Assembly (NCBI RefSeq): GCF_004117075.1
Contig: NZ_CP026721.1
Span: 1,860,001-1,924,000 of the forward strand
DNA: 64,000 bases
Direction: 5' to 3'
Source of the DNA: Fervidobacterium changbaicum
Lineage (GTDB): Bacteria; Thermotogota; Thermotogae; Thermotogales; Fervidobacteriaceae
In this document: piece by piece, positions 6,817 through 16,845 of the stretch
How the letters are laid out: every line of letters starts with the position of its first letter
How positions within the stretch are numbered: the stretch's first letter is position 1
Notes under the pieces: model-generated
What the model was told of the DNA's origin: nothing
The model's database searches: none
The model's input: only the letters and a program-made list of their open reading frames with translations
Made by a program: the position numbers and the translations under genes

Positions 6817-6897
6817 CACACCACCCACGGTCTATTGTTGTTTGGATCTTATTGAAAATCCTTTTAGATTTGGCCGTGAACGGTTCTTTTGTTTTTT
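6817..6897 (+). ncRNA. Decayed copy of the hairpin RNA element upstream of fic
   Basis: It aligns over about 75 bases with the element at 15380-15458, best across TTGTTTGGAT...GAAAATCCTTTT...GATTTGG and the T-rich end CTTTTGTTTTTT. The inner GGAT/ATCC pairing is kept; the outer stem is reduced to CACGG/CCGTG, and the -10-like box is a poor TTTAAC. It lies 78 bases upstream of the fic start. Read as a degenerate sRNA or leader. Confidence 0.45.
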
Positions 6898-6974
6898 GAT
6901 TTTGAATTAGCTTTGCAGTAAAATAGAAGTTAAAAGTTGGTTGTTAATTTTTGGTAGGTAAGGGTGATGGTTGT

Positions 6975-8141
6975 ATGGCGTATTATTCTGGAAATTTGAA
7001 ATTGATTGTTGACTGGCGTGATGACGTTTTGATGGATTTTGTTGATGATTTAACCTTAGAGCATATCGAAGGTCAATTGCTTTGGGAAGAGGCTTGGCAT
7101 TCGTGTGCGCTTGATGGTGTTGTAGTGCCATTTGAAGAAATGGATGCAGTTAAAGAAATCGCTGCTAAGAGGTTGGAGTATTCAGAAGAGATAATCGAGA
7201 AGATGTTGAAAGGCAAGATTAGTGAGAAAAAATTGTCTAATGTTTTGAGCTACTCGTTTGATGATATAAAACCAAGCTGGGCGGAAGTGATAAGGTACTA
7301 CGAAGTTGCCATGGCGATGTATGGTATGGCACTGGAGATGCGCGAAAATGTGTTGTTTTTACTTCCAAAACTGCCAAGGTTGATTCACAGAAGTCTGTTC
7401 TATGGTATCCCTGGGAAGGAGAAGAGTGGGGAGTACAGAAAGACATCAAGTATCGAAGATGCCGGTGTGCCATCTTTGCTGAAAGAACTCGCCCCAAAGG
7501 ATAATATCGAAGAGTTTATGAAAATTTGGTCTGAGTTTACGAGGCTTTTGTTTGTGCAAAGGTGGAATTACACATTGGATAATGTTGAGTACTCTCACGC
7601 ATTGTTCATGAGCATCCTACCTTTCGAGTACGGAAATGGTCGAGTTGGTCGGATTATCATGAACATGCTTCTTTTGATGGCTAAGTACGGGAATGCAATT
7701 ATTTCATCAGAAGAAGAGGAAAAGAAGATGTACTTCAGAGGACTTGAGAGAGGAGCAAAGGTATTCCACGAACAGTTTGTATCAGGCCAGACACTTCCAA
7801 TGCAATTGGCAATTCTATACCAAATGCGAAGAAGTAGCGATTTGATAAAAAGCATTGTGTACGGTTTGGCTGATTCGTATGATATTTTGCTAAATTATTA
7901 TCTGAAGGATAAGCTTGTTCCATTGAGCGAGTTTGTTAAGCAGAGTGGGAAGAAGCTTTCTGAAGTTCAGCGGTTGGTGCGAAGTAGAAAGCTGATTCGC
8001 AAAAAGATAGACGGAGAATGGTATGTATATCCTGAAATTGCACCAAAATCACTCGAGGAATTTCTTGGTTCTGGTAGGATGAATACCGTTGAGAAAGAAT
8101 CCAAGCAAAATGATGGGGCAAAAAAGAAGAACAAGAAATAG
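6975..8141 (+). CDS. Fic-fold protein with a degenerate active site
   Basis: A 388-residue Fic/DOC-fold protein; Fic enzymes move AMP or a related group from a nucleotide to a target side chain. An N-terminal helix carries SCALDG, a variant of the (S/T)xxxE(G/N) autoinhibitory motif. The catalytic loop reads ILPFEYGNGRVGR (from 7614): the catalytic His of HPFx(D/E)GNGR is Leu215 and the acidic position is Tyr, while the nucleotide-binding GNGR is kept. The C terminus (LVPLSEFVKQSGKKLSEVQ) looks like a small helix-turn-helix, shared by all three Fic paralogues here. The start at 6975 was chosen over 6951 because it lines up with the paralogue at 10735 (MAYY/MSYN). Classical AMP transfer is unlikely; a scaffold or regulator role is inference. 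Confidence 0.85.
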   Translation: MAYYSGNLKLIVDWRDDVLMDFVDDLTLEHIEGQLLWEEAWHSCALDGVVVPFEEMDAVKEIAAKRLEYSEEIIEKMLKGKISEKKLSNVLSYSFDDIKPSWAEVIRYYEVAMAMYGMALEMRENVLFLLPKLPRLIHRSLFYGIPGKEKSGEYRKTSSIEDAGVPSLLKELAPKDNIEEFMKIWSEFTRLLFVQRWNYTLDNVEYSHALFMSILPFEYGNGRVGRIIMNMLLLMAKYGNAIISSEEEEKKMYFRGLERGAKVFHEQFVSGQTLPMQLAILYQMRRSSDLIKSIVYGLADSYDILLNYYLKDKLVPLSEFVKQSGKKLSEVQRLVRSRKLIRKKIDGEWYVYPEIAPKSLEEFLGSGRMNTVEKESKQNDGAKKKNKK

Positions 8142-10734: not shown

Positions 10735-11832
10735 TTAAACGGGAGCAATCTCGGGATATACGTACCATTTTCCATCTATCTTTTTGCGAATTAGTTTTCT
10801 GGTGTTGAGCAAGTAGTTTACTTCGGACGGTTTTTTTCCGATTTGTTTTGCGAATTCGCTTAGTGGAATGAGTTTGGCGCTCAAATATTTTGTGAGCAAG
10901 ATATCGTACGAATCCATCAAGCCGTATGCGATTGCTTTTGTAAGATGCCCGGTACGTTGTGCTTTGTATACGATTTCAAGTATCTTCAGTTCCGGTGGAC
11001 CAAATTCCAAATTCGGTGTTAGTATGAGTGTAGCTATTTCAATTCCTTTTAGGTATGTTTCTTTGTCCTTCCCTTGGGATGGGATGATTGCGTTTAGGTA
11101 GGATGCAAGCATTAGTAGAATGTTCAGAATGATTCGACTGACTCGACCATTCCCATATTCAAAAGGTAGGATACTCATGAACAATGCGTGGGAATGTTCC
11201 GCAGCGTTAAACATGACCTCGTCAGTTAATCTTCTTTTTTTCAGCAAGAACAATGTGTATTCGGCCCAGAGCTCCATGAGTTTTTCGATGTTGTCTTCGG
11301 GAGCATATTTTACGAGCAGAGGTGTAATACCAAGGTCTTTGCTGAGTACTTTCTTGTTGTTTGGTTTTCTGTACTCTCCGGCTCTGTTCTTTTCCGGAAT
11401 GCCGTAGAACAAGCTTGCGTGGATTATTTTTGGTAACAAATGAATTTGTTGGAGTATATTCATGTCTTCTTGCAATGCCAAGGCATACATTGAGGAAGCC
11501 ACTTCAAAATATCTGATTAGCTCAGCCCAGCTCGGCTTTATTCTGTCAAATGAATAGCTGAGAACTTTTGAGAGTTCTTTTTGACTGAGCCTCCCTTGCA
11601 AGAATTCTTCAATAACTTTATCAGAAAGCACGGCTCGTTGTTCAGCTATTTGTTTGATTTGTTCTATTTCCTCTCGTGGTACGATAACACCATCGAGTGC
11701 ACAAGAGTGCCAAGCTTCTTCCCAGAGCAATTGGTCGGTAATATCGTCTAATGGTAAGTCTCCGACAACGTCATCGAGCATAAATTCACGCCAGTTGGTT
11801 CTTGAAAGCAGGTTTCGAGGATTGTAGGACAT
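10735..11832 (-). CDS. Fic-fold protein with a degenerate active site, second copy
   Basis: A 365-residue paralogue of the protein at 6975-8141, matching from MSYNPRN to the C-terminal VYPEIAP. The loop reads ILPFEYGNGRVSR, with Leu222 in place of the catalytic His and Tyr in place of Asp/Glu, while GNGR is kept. LLWEEAWHSCALDGV is nearly identical in both copies. The C-terminal LIPLSEFAKQIGKKPSEVN resembles a helix-turn-helix. AAAGGAGATGAAATGGC precedes the ATG. Upstream on the same strand lies the TnpB element and, beyond it, the AAA/DUF4143 ATPase; without the insertion the two genes would be about 100 bases apart, so they were probably one operon. Both copies keep the fold without the catalytic base, which suggests a binding or regulatory role (inference). 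Confidence 0.85.
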   Translation of the reverse strand: MSYNPRNLLSRTNWREFMLDDVVGDLPLDDITDQLLWEEAWHSCALDGVIVPREEIEQIKQIAEQRAVLSDKVIEEFLQGRLSQKELSKVLSYSFDRIKPSWAELIRYFEVASSMYALALQEDMNILQQIHLLPKIIHASLFYGIPEKNRAGEYRKPNNKKVLSKDLGITPLLVKYAPEDNIEKLMELWAEYTLFLLKKRRLTDEVMFNAAEHSHALFMSILPFEYGNGRVSRIILNILLMLASYLNAIIPSQGKDKETYLKGIEIATLILTPNLEFGPPELKILEIVYKAQRTGHLTKAIAYGLMDSYDILLTKYLSAKLIPLSEFAKQIGKKPSEVNYLLNTRKLIRKKIDGKWYVYPEIAPV

Positions 11833-11873: not shown

Positions 11874-11942
11874 ATCCCCTAAAGGGGATCGGATTCTTAG
11901 TAGCTCAAGGCTACCTTCCATGGAGAAGTGCTTACTCCATGG
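11874..11942 (-). ncRNA. Probable omega RNA 3' region of the TnpB element
   Basis: Three hairpins in a row at the tnpB 3' end and right end: CCATGGAG/CTCCATGG (11918-11942), GTAGC/GCTAC (11900-11914) and ATCCCCT/AGGGGAT (11874-11889). TnpB guide RNAs are made from this position in studied elements. Only structure is seen; expression is inferred. Confidence 0.5.
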
Positions 11943-13095
11943 CTACAAAGGTGTGGCTTAAATCTCACACCTTTGACGGGTGCCAATCCCGCTACTACTT
12001 GGTTGCTGCCAAGATACCTTTTATATATGTTTACTGCTCCTACTCCATCCCTGTGATACTCAAACCCACATTTTGCACACTTGTACCTGCGACCTTCTGA
12101 GTGATTTTGTTGTCCACACACCGGACACATTCTGCTTGTATAACTTTCTGAAATTTGCTCAACTTTTATCCCGTGCACCTGCGCTTTGTACATTATTAGG
12201 TTTGTTATTCGTCTAAAGCACCACTGATGCACTTTTTGCATTGCGTTGTCGTTGCCTTCTACTCTTTCTCGAATGTTTGTGACATCCCCTATCACGATGG
12301 TGTCTATTGCTTTTTGATAACACATCCCCACAAATTGGCTCGTGATTTTGTGCAGTATATCGTTCAGCTGGTTGCTTAGTTTTCTCAACAGTTTGTTTTT
12401 TGCTCTTAGAACCTTTCTGTACCTTCTTGAGTCTTTTTTGCATTTACTGACTGCAGTTTTGCCAGTTCTTTGTTCCTTAATGCACCACCATGATATGAAA
12501 CGACTTCTTGACCATCAAAGAAGGCGATGGGACGGAGTATGCCCAAATCTACCGCTACAAGCTTTGTGTCTTTTTCTTTGCGCTCTTCAATCTTCACCTC
12601 TATTCCAAGGTGAAGATAGTATCTGCCTGCTTCATACACCAACTTAGCTTGTCTAATCTTTGCAGCAGATGGCAGACTTGTTTGAATCTCAAAAGGCTCT
12701 CTGTCTTTGCCTAAGGATAGCCTCAATCTACCATCGGGCAGAAGTTTGATTGCACTATCTTTCCAAATGAAGGGCATGAACTTTTTTGTTTTGTACGGTG
12801 GTTTTGCATCAGGATTGGACTTAAGGGCTTTAAAATAACCATCGAGGGCTTGGAAGTAGAGTTGGACAAACGCTTGCTTTGAGTGAGTGTGAATATTGAT
12901 GCTGGAAGCCCAACGAAGGATAAACTTTTGTGCGCTATTTTCAGAAAGCCAGAAGTCTTTCTTTTGTTTGATTTTCCTGACAAGAGAAAGAGTTTTGTTG
13001 TAGATTCTTGCTGCAGTTTGGTTAAGTTCGTTGCACATAGTATACAATTCAGCTGGAACAGGAACTTTGTAGGTTCGGATTATATATTTTGGCAT
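11897..13095 (-). pseudogene. tnpB: TnpB RNA-guided nuclease, single-base frameshift
   Basis: TnpB split into two frames. The first part (from ATG 13095, after AAGAAAGGAGGTGAG) has the wedge/recognition region and RuvC-I motif VAVDLG. The second part (to 11897) has QISESYTSRMCPVCG and RYKCAKCGFEYHRD, giving a zinc ribbon and RuvC-III. The frame breaks near 12445-12452, where one base is missing; restoring it gives SKCKKDSRRYRKVLRAKNKL, a continuous TnpB sequence. RuvC-II reads IVIGDV, with Gly where many TnpBs have Glu; the Glu of SESYTS may stand in, as in the lineage with a rearranged active site. Otherwise full length, so it was inactivated recently or carries a read error. Confidence 0.88.
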
Positions 13096-13212
13096 GTGCG
13101 CTGGCTCACCTCCTTTCTTAACAATTATACTAGATTTCTTGAACAAAACTTGCAAGCCCTTACTACTCCCCTAAAGGAGAGTAGCTTGCGGGCTTGTTAA
13201 TGTACTGTCAAT

Positions 13213-13281: not shown

Positions 13282-14451
13282 TCACCACCCCATTCCGAGT
13301 GTCCACATGGGAATGGCATTTCTCACCGGCAGGTCTATATCGTCCCTTATCGCATAATGTGCCTGCTTTCTTTTCTTGTTAGCCCCTCCTATTTCTATGG
13401 TTATGTTGTTGTATACGTAGTCACCTTTTGTTTCATCTTTTTGAGCCAATAGTGTCCCTCTATCTTTTAGTGCAAAGACGACAAATGCTTCACGGAAGTT
13501 GCCGATTTCTCCATCCAATGCGCTGTAGATAACTGGGTCTGAGAAGAATATTTTCGCACCTTTTGAGTATGGGCTTTCGATGAGAGATTTTTGAACGATG
13601 GTTACGAGCCCGACTTGGCCCATGGCATTTAGAAGTTGATAGAGCTTTTCTTTGCTCAGTCTCCATTCTTTGCACATGCTTTCTACGTTTATTGTCGGTA
13701 TTTTCGAGTATGCCAAATAGCTAACGATGGCGTTCATGACTCCGAAATGGTTCTCACTTAGTGTACCAACGATGTGAGGGATATCGTAGTAGATGGATTT
13801 TTGGATGATGTTCATGATGCGGTCTTTGAAGTTTGGTTCAGTGTAGAATGGTCTTGTGCCGTGGTCTTTATAGGATTTGAAGTATTTCATCACGTCGACC
13901 TCTCGGAGTATTTTCATCGATATATCCGATAGTTCGCTACTGAACGGGTCGGTAATAACAGGCAGTATTTTTCCTGTCTCAAAGTGTATGAACTCTCGTA
14001 AAGACATGAGGGGAAGTGAGATGATAACGAATCTTCGCGAGAGTTCCGCGATGCTTTTGTGCAGCATTATCGAACTACTATCACTAATCCATATTTTTTT
14101 GTTCGGAAATGAATCGTAAAGACTTTTGAGTTGGATTCCCCAATCTTTTAGAAAATGTATTTCATCGATGATTATTCCATCGTAGGATGAAAGGATATGT
14201 TGGCTCAGCTCGTAGAACGGGACAACACCAACAAGCGGGTCGTCTGCGGATATGTAGAACATGTTTTCTTCCTGCGCGATTGAGAGCAGGAATGTCGTTT
14301 TTCCACTACCACGAGGTCCACATAATAATATTCCTCTGCTTACGAAGCGCTTTTTCAATTCCTCAAAGTACAATCTTCGCTTTGCTGGAAGAAAAGATAT
14401 AGACCTTTTCATTCTCAATTCAAGTAGTTCCAGCACATTCTCGATGTTCAT
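13282..14451 (-). CDS. AAA ATPase with DUF4143-type C terminus
   Basis: A 389-residue P-loop ATPase of the AAA_14/DUF4143 type. Walker A is GPRGSGKT at residues 45-52 and Walker B is DGIIIDEIHF (Asp96, Glu97), followed by KKIWISDSSS as sensor 1. The middle part (LSLREF-like LMSLREFIHFETG) and the winged-helix-like region (SKEKLYQLLNAMGQVGLVTIV) match the usual plan, ending in a nuclease-like DUF4143 fold with VVFALKDRG and NNITIEIGG. Members are common in thermophiles and archaea, mostly without known function. Upstream is an array of CGTTCT-N5-AGAACG palindromes, which may be bound by the winged helix for autoregulation (inference). A dead paralogue at 57120-58058 has a similar array. Confidence 0.85.
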   Translation of the reverse strand: MNIENVLELLELRMKRSISFLPAKRRLYFEELKKRFVSRGILLCGPRGSGKTTFLLSIAQEENMFYISADDPLVGVVPFYELSQHILSSYDGIIIDEIHFLKDWGIQLKSLYDSFPNKKIWISDSSSIMLHKSIAELSRRFVIISLPLMSLREFIHFETGKILPVITDPFSSELSDISMKILREVDVMKYFKSYKDHGTRPFYTEPNFKDRIMNIIQKSIYYDIPHIVGTLSENHFGVMNAIVSYLAYSKIPTINVESMCKEWRLSKEKLYQLLNAMGQVGLVTIVQKSLIESPYSKGAKIFFSDPVIYSALDGEIGNFREAFVVFALKDRGTLLAQKDETKGDYVYNNITIEIGGANKKRKQAHYAIRDDIDLPVRNAIPMWTLGMGW

Positions 14452-14503: not shown

Positions 14504-14605
14504 CGTTCTTTTTCAAAACGAAAAATGCAAAAAATTTAGAAACCGTTCTCTAACAGAACGATTTTGTTTGAAATTCGTTCTCTATGGAAACGAATCGGTA
14601 GAACG
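14504..14605. promoter_or_regulatory. Operator array of CGTTCT-N5-AGAACG palindromes
   Basis: Three 17-bp sites upstream of the ATPase: 14504-14520 (CGTTCT TTTTC AAAACG), 14544-14560 (CGTTCT CTAAC AGAACG) and 14576-14592 (CGTTCT CTATG GAAACG), plus a half site AGAACG at 14600. All have a 5-base centre. Starts are 40 and 32 bases apart, near four and three DNA turns. The same motif with 32/41/32 spacing lies upstream of the paralogue at 58083-58204. Confidence 0.8.
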
Positions 14606-14655
14606 ATTTGGAGCTTATGCTTACAAGATTAAGGATAGATAGTGTCTGAGCGTGT

Positions 14656-15299
14656 TCACTCTTCAGGTTCTTCTTCCAGCTCTTCTTCGTATCAGGATAC
14701 TGCTTTGGTGGCTTGCCGAAGATTTCAAGGATTGCAGGGGATTTCTTGTTCGGTTCTGGTTCGGTGATTTTCTTTAGTTCCACAATGAACTGCCACTCAT
14801 CGCCGTAGTCAAATAGGAATAGCATTTTTTGGCGGGGTCATGTGAAAACTTGGCAGACTTTGACTTTTTTTACACCTTTCTTTGTCGGTAGGTTCTTGAT
14901 TATACGCTCCACTAATTTGTACTTCTCGGGTGGCAGGTCTGAGAATAATTTTTTAAGGTCCACTATGCCTTCATCACCTTCCAAGTCTGTTTTGAGTTCG
15001 TATCGTACTTTTGAGTTGATCCAGTTTTTTGTGTTGTCAAAAAAGTCGAAGAGATGGTCGAAATCAAATTCGAAAGCGTCGATGATCGTTAATCCCGGTC
15101 GATAGGGTGTGGTTTTGCCCAGAACTGCGATGACTGGGTACGGTGGCTCATCAACTTCTTCCAAGAATGGCGCACGTATCCAAGATTTTGCGAGGGTGAC
15201 TCTGAAGATGTAGAGATTGTTGTTTAATTGAGAGCTGCTGAGAGTTTTTTCGTTTTTGCCTTTCGTGCGTTCAAACTTTCTTTTTTCTTGCTTGTACAC
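14656..15299 (-). pseudogene. Plasmid pRiA4b ORF-3-like protein, nonsense and frameshift
   Basis: The first part (15299 to 14841) has the family's start pattern (LYIFRVTLAKSWIRAPFLEE, FDHLFDFFD). It stops at TGA 14838-14840, but the same frame continues as PRQKMLFLFDYGDEWQFIVE, the hallmark FDFGDxW block. Further on, after GKPPKQYPD, one base is missing; restoring it gives YEEELEEEPEE and a stop at 14656, the acidic end usual for the family. So there are two lesions in one otherwise complete gene. The family's function is not established; members occur on plasmids and islands. In-frame TGA as selenocysteine is not supported. Confidence 0.8.
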
Positions 15300-15344: not shown

Positions 15345-15373
15345 TGTTGAAAGCGGAAGATTTGTGGTATAAT
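15345..15373 (+). promoter_or_regulatory. Promoter of the hairpin RNA
   Basis: TGTTGA (15345-15350), 17-base spacer, TATAAT (15368-15373). The G-rich start of the hairpin at 15380 is 7 bases after the -10 box, the expected transcription start. Confidence 0.7.
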
Positions 15374-15379
15374 ATTTTT

Positions 15380-15458
15380 GGGACCACCCTTGACCTCTCG
15401 TTTGTTTGGATTATTTGAAAATCCTTTTGAATTGGGGCGTGGGTGGTCCCTTTGTTTT
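15380..15458 (+). ncRNA. Small hairpin RNA or fic leader with its own promoter
   Basis: GGGACCACCC (15380-15389) pairs perfectly with GGGTGGTCCC (15441-15450) and is followed by TTTGTTTTAT, so the transcript would begin and end in the same 10-bp stem with a terminator tail: a compact RNA of about 75 nucleotides. Inside the 51-base loop, GGATT and AATCC can pair. A decayed homologue lies upstream of the fic gene at 6975. This unit lies 420 bases upstream of the fic start at 15880. It could be a free small RNA or a transcription attenuator; no known family was recognised. Confidence 0.6.
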
Positions 15459-15879
15459 ATATTTAAAAACAGTCTTGAGACATCACTAAGTTAGATGGGA
15501 GACTGGAAAAGTGAGAAGAAATAGTCAAAGCTGTAGTTGTGTGTGGTGAGATTAAAGCGACAGATGAGGCCAAGAACTTTGCAAAAAAACACATAAATTG
15601 TAAGCGACAGAAAATAAAGTACATTTTTAAAGGCTCTTGCTAATCGTGAGTACGACTTTGTGATAAAATAAAGATAGCTGTGATTGAACAATGTTCTGTC
15701 TTTTCGTATTACACTAAAGTTATTAACAAATTTCACAGGTGTAACTACTTGTCCAGATGTCGCTTTTTAACTTCAAACAGGACAAAGGGATGCTGTTCGA
15801 AAATTATTTAGATAAAGAAACTTTGGTTCAGATGTATACAGCCTCTCGAAAAAAGTGGACAAAATACGGAGGTTACAAT

Positions 15880-16845
15880 ATGAATAACATGTTAACAAGG
15901 CTAGTAGAGTGCAGAAGAAGTGTTTTTAAACCTATCTTTGTTGAAATAACAAATAAAGAATGGTTATATAGGCTTAAGGAAGAAACAAGGAATTCCCTGA
16001 TGATTGAGGGCATTTTTGTGGATGAGGATGAATTAGACAGAGCTTTGAATACAAACTACAAGTCGGCAAGTGAAGTGGTGAATTATTTTAAAACGGCAAG
16101 ATTTTTCTACAATCTAGCTTTTGAGTATTCCAAGACGCAGGAAAAGTTGTTGACTGTTGCTTTAGTGAGAACATGCCATAGAATGTTGTTTGATGGTTTA
16201 ATCCAGAATGAGAGCCGACTTGGAAATTTTAGATATGGACCAATAAAGATAACTGGTGCGAAAATTAAACCGTCAGAATACGATATTGCAGACTGGGTTA
16301 AGTTGTGGATCAGATATGTAGAATATGCCTATCAAAAACACCCAGTTCACGAAGCCACCGCAAGAACTCATGTGTTGTTTGAAAGCATCCATCCTTTCGA
16401 GGATGGTAACGGCAGGATAGGTAGAATTTTGACAAATACTATTTTGATCTACTATGGATATTTGAATATAGTAGTTAAAGGTATGGATGACAGTGAGCGT
16501 ATGGAATATATTAAGGCGTTGGAAAGTGCGGAAAAAGGGATTAGAAAGTTGTTCCGAGAGTCAGCAAACGATCAAACGCCAGAGAAGATAGATGCAATGT
16601 TCTCAACGGAGGATACAAAACCACTTGCAAGAATGATAGCGTACAGTTTAATCGAGGCTTTTGATAGGGAAATTTGTTCTGCTAATAGGGATAAATTGGT
16701 TAAAGTCGACGAATTTGCAAATCAGATTGGAAAGAGTGCGGATGCAGTGAGAAAGATGATAGAACGTAAGCAATTAATTGCGATAAAGCCAGAGGGTAGG
16801 TGGTTGGTGTATCCACAACTTTTGAGTGATTGTACAATAGAATGA
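15880..16845 (+). CDS. Fic domain protein with a canonical active site
   Basis: A 321-residue Fic protein with the full motif IHPFEDGNGRIGR (catalytic His171 at 16390), expected to transfer AMP or a similar group to a target. An upstream helix carries SLMIEG, a good match to the (S/T)xxxE(G/N) inhibitory motif, so activity is probably self-restrained. The C terminus (KVDEFANQIGKSADAVRKMI) is a helix-turn-helix-like domain shared with the other two Fic proteins. The frame is open from 15757, but ATG 15880 follows a perfect CGGAGG site and gives the same N-terminal length before the inhibitory motif as the paralogues. Convergent with the sigma-like gene 85 bases away. The target is unknown. Confidence 0.88.
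   Translation: MNNMLTRLVECRRSVFKPIFVEITNKEWLYRLKEETRNSLMIEGIFVDEDELDRALNTNYKSASEVVNYFKTARFFYNLAFEYSKTQEKLLTVALVRTCHRMLFDGLIQNESRLGNFRYGPIKITGAKIKPSEYDIADWVKLWIRYVEYAYQKHPVHEATARTHVLFESIHPFEDGNGRIGRILTNTILIYYGYLNIVVKGMDDSERMEYIKALESAEKGIRKLFRESANDQTPEKIDAMFSTEDTKPLARMIAYSLIEAFDREICSANRDKLVKVDEFANQIGKSADAVRKMIERKQLIAIKPEGRWLVYPQLLSDCTIE

Follow-up and report, generated by a model that had tools for sequence, protein, structure and literature searches.

We propose that the element c1 (15380–15458, plus strand) is most likely a self-terminating gene for a small RNA, restricted to its lineage and located in an island of defence and Fic genes within the 64-kb stretch of DNA analysed here (the window). 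In its fuller form, which we put forward tentatively, c1 is a self-contained gene whose product of ~71–79 nt is one long hairpin followed by a U-tract, the hairpin serving as both RNA body and terminator and a loop motif as the working part. These limits come from the fold and a covariance model; we infer transcription of c1, its start and end points, and any target. An earlier note on this DNA had described a compact RNA with its own promoter. Homologues, an invariant loop motif and tail, and paired stem changes support part of that description, but the two further sequences of the family, c2 and c3, have no recognisable promoter.

Hairpin, tail and promoter-like region of c1

The stem described in the earlier note is borne out by the sequence. 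The 5′ arm GGGACCACCC (15380–15389, plus strand) begins six bases after a TATAAT (15368–15373) and pairs perfectly with the 3′ arm GGGTGGTCCC (15441–15450, plus strand), after which the T-rich tail TTTGTTTT (15451–15458, plus strand) follows. When perfect 10-bp inverted repeats with at least six G/C and arms 20–80 nt apart were sought, c1 proved to be the sole such GC-rich repeat in the window; 30 dinucleotide shuffles yielded 0.4 per window, both strands counted. None of the 30 shuffled windows held such a repeat with a T-rich tail or a -10-like box, and the combination of promoter, stem and tail, present at a single place in the window, was absent from all of them. Positions 15380–15452 fold at −35.2 kcal/mol (z = −5.5), with 0 of 200 shuffles as good, and the stem is still predicted at 65–75 °C. 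The perfect arms are 51 nt apart, and the innermost pair of the consensus encloses 36 columns.

The promoter-like region (15347–15373, plus strand), delineated by sequence, scan and motif count, comprises TTGAAA at 15347–15352 and the extended -10 TGGTATAAT at 15365–15373, in which TG stands one base ahead of TATAAT. The earlier reading of TGTTGA-N17-TATAAT stands in part: TATAAT lies at the right distance, but TGTTGA is a poor match to TTGACA. Judged by its sequence, the extended -10 with TTGAAA at 15347, which is 15 nt from TATAAT or 17 nt from TAATAT, appears to be the better reading. The extended -10 is also a stronger argument for a c1 promoter than the -35/-10 match. A -35/-10 scan alone performs at chance level (2 found, 2.3 expected); exact TGNTATAAT occurs five times in 64 kb, both strands included. 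In Thermotoga maritima, 63% of transcription units have the extended -10 as their most informative promoter mode (PMC3636130), which fits TGGTATAAT ahead of c1. The corresponding region of the sister species G008 reads TGGTATAAA, its -10 being TATAAA (last T to A). By scan, a recognisable promoter is confined to c1 and this near-identical G008 copy.

If c1 is a small RNA gene, RNA polymerase would start at G 15380 from the extended -10 promoter, make one long hairpin and stop in the U-tract that follows the 3′ arm; the 5′ and 3′ ends of the product would be locked together. Such an end-to-end stem would shield the RNA at the high temperatures at which the lineage is expected to grow, and would present a loop with AAAAUCCUU. 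The loop motif, its presumed working part, could pair with a Shine-Dalgarno-like AAGGAUUUU of a distant mRNA or serve as a recognition site for a protein. When the c1 loop was paired with the 46 gene starts of the window, the duplex energies were no better than those of shuffled loops.

The further claim that the element leaves no coding room is upheld: it has no ATG, and comparison of the three copies reveals no third-position bias, the differences by codon position across the three pairs being 10/8/9, 8/10/13 and 11/13/11. One frame that contains TTG codons remains open across the element and beyond its tail. A remnant of coding sequence, with frames reading LFENPFELGR, LIENPFRFGR and LFQNPSKIRS, would suit the ungapped alignment of the three copies and their common open frame, but it is the least probable of the explanations that we considered, given the even spread of differences over codon positions and the lack of any start, stop or ribosome site common to the three copies.

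Homologous copies and their conservation

The earlier note had pointed to a resemblance between c1 and 6817–6897. This resemblance is real (53 of 80 positions identical, ungapped), but it lies mostly, not exclusively, in the loop and tail. On sequence comparison the copy there, c2 (6817–6895, plus strand), which has a weaker hairpin and no clear promoter of its own, is a true homologue of c1. The third distinct sequence, c3, lies in G008 (L065, 13660–13738, minus strand); this genome also carries c1, unchanged across the RNA. The three distinct sequences align ungapped over 80 nt with 53, 49 and 45 identities, compared with at most 40 in shuffled pairs (5000 shuffles per pair).

The family thus defined occupies four places, with three distinct sequences, in 2 of 101 genomes. 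A covariance model was built from four rows (c1, its G008 copy, c2 and c3), and in a search of the 101 genomes only these four places were convincing; c1 scores 100.5 bits, a match by construction since it is in the model. There were matches at E ≤ 1 in 54 of the 101 genomes, the best beyond the four true places reaching 27 bits; the 27-bit match, in G084, was rejected as a homologue, lying inside a protein ORF. A pattern applied to 103 genomes from the phylum likewise recovered only the same two species, G000 and G008. A DNA search of the element's own 2.27-Mb chromosome returned 28 matches at E ≤ 10. Those at c1 and c2 alone are convincing; the third (C1:1926559) is a chance match inside an ORF that reads as glycoside-hydrolase-3-like. 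DNA matches in G042 and G011 were also at chance level and had no such hairpin. Allowing one mismatch, AAAAGGATTTTCAAA is found at five places in its own genome, c1 and c2 among them. Two scans of viral contigs gave 14 and 1 pattern matches, and the hairpin was absent from the surroundings of the two of the 14 that were inspected. Across 80 Fic loci from genome contigs, no match to the covariance model was better than E 0.16.

Conservation is concentrated in the loop and tail. Among the three distinct sequences, 18 of 35 loop columns and all 8 tail columns are invariant; in the arms the figure falls to 8 of 19 (5′) and 4 of 17 (3′). The longest loop piece common to all three is the motif AAAATCCTT (15418–15426, plus strand, in c1). 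Standard pairs form in 85.7% of stem cells, against 39–59% with the partner slid. The check for compensatory changes proposed in the earlier note has thereby been run, and 5 of 14 stem pairs are changed on both sides, a count that comes from three independent rows from which the structure itself was derived. We regard this covariation as encouraging, three distinct sequences being too few for firm covariation when the structure is derived from them. Other parts of the structure vary: the inner GGAU/AUCC helix is absent from c3, and the perfect terminal repeat of c1 is kept in neither c2 nor c3. The c2 fold (−16.2 kcal/mol, z −0.8) is no better than chance, and that of c3 is weak (−10.2 kcal/mol).

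The main rival to the small RNA reading is a large-loop intrinsic terminator or insulator ahead of Fic promoters, with c1 a copy that happens to lie behind a chance promoter-like sequence. We consider it rather unlikely, though less so than any other alternative. The tail is invariant, as a terminator would have it. The c2 copy lies ~195 nt after a same-strand OLD-like gene and c3 ~110 nt after an Mrr-like gene, and both end where the -35 of the Fic2 promoter-like sequence begins; between an upstream same-strand gene and such a site, a terminator is expected. It was claimed in the earlier note that the loop is functional and the element not a mere terminator, and the invariant AAAATCCTT favours this, but the siting of c2 and c3 does not. 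A terminator, on the other hand, needs neither a 36-nt loop nor a conserved loop motif; c2 and c3 fold weakly; and the gene upstream of c1 is divergent, so that c1 has no same-strand neighbour whose transcription would run into it or need stopping. A terminator accounts well for c2 and c3 but leaves the conserved loop, and the place of c1 after a divergent gene, unexplained. The leader, mobile-element and coding-remnant readings are less likely than either the small RNA or the terminator.

Fic genes and the surrounding island

The island contains OLD-like ATPase genes, an Mrr-like nuclease, AAA ATPases, TnpB-like remains and three Fic-family genes, and the next same-strand gene is a Fic gene at all four places of the family. 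After c1 this is Fic1 (15880–16845, plus strand; PF02661, E 1.6e-13), 430 nt away and carrying HPFEDGNGR. Its ORF is open from 15757; the start is probably ATG 15880, because GGAGG precedes it and 4 of the 6 best homologues align from about residue 40–46. After c2 it is Fic2 (6975–8141, plus strand; PF02661, E 5e-8), in whose alignment LPFEYGNGR replaces HPFxxGNGR. We take HPFxxGNGR to be the catalytic Fic motif, in which case Fic2 would have lost the catalytic histidine. A second Fic-family gene with LPFEYGNGR lies at 10735–11832 on the minus strand, in the same island as Fic1.

The c2 and c3 copies are tightly linked to Fic2. Both precede orthologous Fic2 genes. The flanks and first Fic2 codons have diverged or recombined, while the hairpin can still be made out, as can the promoter-like sequence that follows it. 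The tails of both copies run into promoter-like sequence ahead of Fic2: directly after c2 a scan finds TTGATT-N17-TAAAAT (6896–6924, plus strand), the presumed Fic2 promoter, and at the same place after c3 G008 has TTGACT-N16-TAGAAT. The Fic2 genes of the two species are near-identical from about codon 10, while their first codons and upstream DNA differ strongly; from the sequences, we read the 5′ end of Fic2 (6925–7010; L065, ~13530–13650) as a recombination boundary.

The link of c1 to Fic1 is weak, because the 430 nt between them hold gene debris and Fic1 has a conserved upstream element of its own. The debris, between the RNA and Fic1 at 15500–15640, includes a peptide-like remnant, VKAVVVCGEIKATDEAKNFAKKHINCKRQKIKYIFKGSC, which is perhaps the end of a lost gene. 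The upstream element is an inverted repeat, TTGTCC-N25-GGACAA, at 15749–15785. Repeats of this type with 25-nt spacing stand ahead of Fic1 relatives in G008, G007, G004, G028, G014 and G012, and one with 24-nt spacing is present in the Fic locus of G076, the half-sites being slightly changed among relatives. The repeat is possibly an operator for the C-terminal DNA-binding-like part of the Fic protein, or another hairpin. On the other side of c1, two adjoining ORFs on the minus strand (14550–15299) resemble one frameshifted gene. The divergent gene at 14838–15299 is present in the same two species only (2 of 61 genomes) and is thus uninformative about a link to c1.

These surroundings bear on a further alternative, in which c1 is the 5′ leader or attenuator of a lost gene, with remains at ~15500–15640, and c2 and c3 are leaders controlling Fic2. 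The peptide-like remnant after c1 would agree with this, as would the end of c2 ~80 nt ahead of the Fic2 start codon, and in c1 and c2 part of the 3′ arm can fold into a small alternative hairpin. This alternative hairpin was not found in c3, however, and in both species promoter-like sequence lies at the corresponding position between the main hairpin and Fic2, which would allow Fic2 to be transcribed without the main hairpin. We judge a leader improbable.

The remaining alternative, a relic of a short MITE-like mobile element with 10-bp terminal inverted repeats, draws on the perfect terminal repeat of c1 and on transposon remains in the same island, where ORFs at 11897–13155 read as TnpB-like from their translations. 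Copies are few and old, however, with no others convincing in the genome; neither c2 nor c3 retains the terminal repeat, and the c1 flanks show no evident target-site duplication. A mobile origin accordingly seems very improbable, if a shade less so than a coding remnant. Local sequence identity is of little help in weighing selection on the small RNA candidate: between G000 and G008 there are 0 changes in 73 positions of the RNA, 29 in 802 of the upstream gene and 3 in 256 downstream, too few to show selection. Between the two species an 88-nt stretch around c1 is unchanged, which is nothing exceptional in this mosaic island, as longer runs occur nearby.

A functional link of the RNA family to Fic is possible. 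A more specific version, in which the hairpin RNA acts together with the Fic genes that it precedes and, for example, restrains or licenses a Fic-family toxin including Fic2, thereby forming an RNA-controlled Fic module, is a long shot in our estimation. Antisense action on the Fic genes was considered and is unsupported, as Fic1 and Fic2 rank near the bottom of the 46 window gene starts by loop duplex energy. Searches of open-access literature turned up no account of such an RNA or of any RNA that partners with Fic. The defence and Fic island around the element is fast-changing, a setting in which RNAs that partner with proteins merit search.

Comparison with known RNAs and repeats

The c1 family is probably a new, narrow, lineage-specific small RNA candidate. 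The earlier note knew of no described family that matched, and the Rfam 15 results agree: no family reaches its gathering score anywhere in the window, and permissive scans gave chance-level matches for c1 (mir-136, 21.2 bits against a cut-off of 64; BsrG, 8.4 against 55) and no match for c2. If transcribed, c1 would extend the few small RNAs known from the phylum by one that is compact, closed at its ends and stable to heat; 12 putative ncRNAs have been reported in Thermotoga maritima (PMC3636130). If not transcribed, it would be an ordinary terminator with an unusually large, conserved loop.

Among known systems, c1 resembles the intergenic small RNAs of bacteria, which have a sigma-70 promoter and an intrinsic terminator and likewise a compact structured body with no coding room; its stem and T-rich tail form a 3′ terminator that is accompanied by no ORF, no ATG and no codon bias. 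Unlike such RNAs in general, its family is confined to two sister species and has no Rfam match. With intrinsic (Rho-independent) terminators it shares a GC-rich stem and U-tract, the stems of c2 and c3 being weaker, but it lacks their short loop, having the 51-nt spacing between perfect arms and a conserved loop motif instead. In type III toxin-antitoxin systems of the ToxI type, a structured RNA lies directly before the toxin gene, with a terminator between. The family is alike in placing a structured RNA ahead of a toxin-like gene, but it is a single unit, not tandem repeats, and the downstream genes belong to the Fic/DOC family (PF02661) and are not ToxN-like nucleases, which sets it outside that class. 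It shares with REP- and MITE-type palindromic repeats an inverted repeat in intergenic DNA, but differs from them in having two diverged copies per genome, no dispersal and a terminal repeat that is not kept, and so does not qualify as a MITE.
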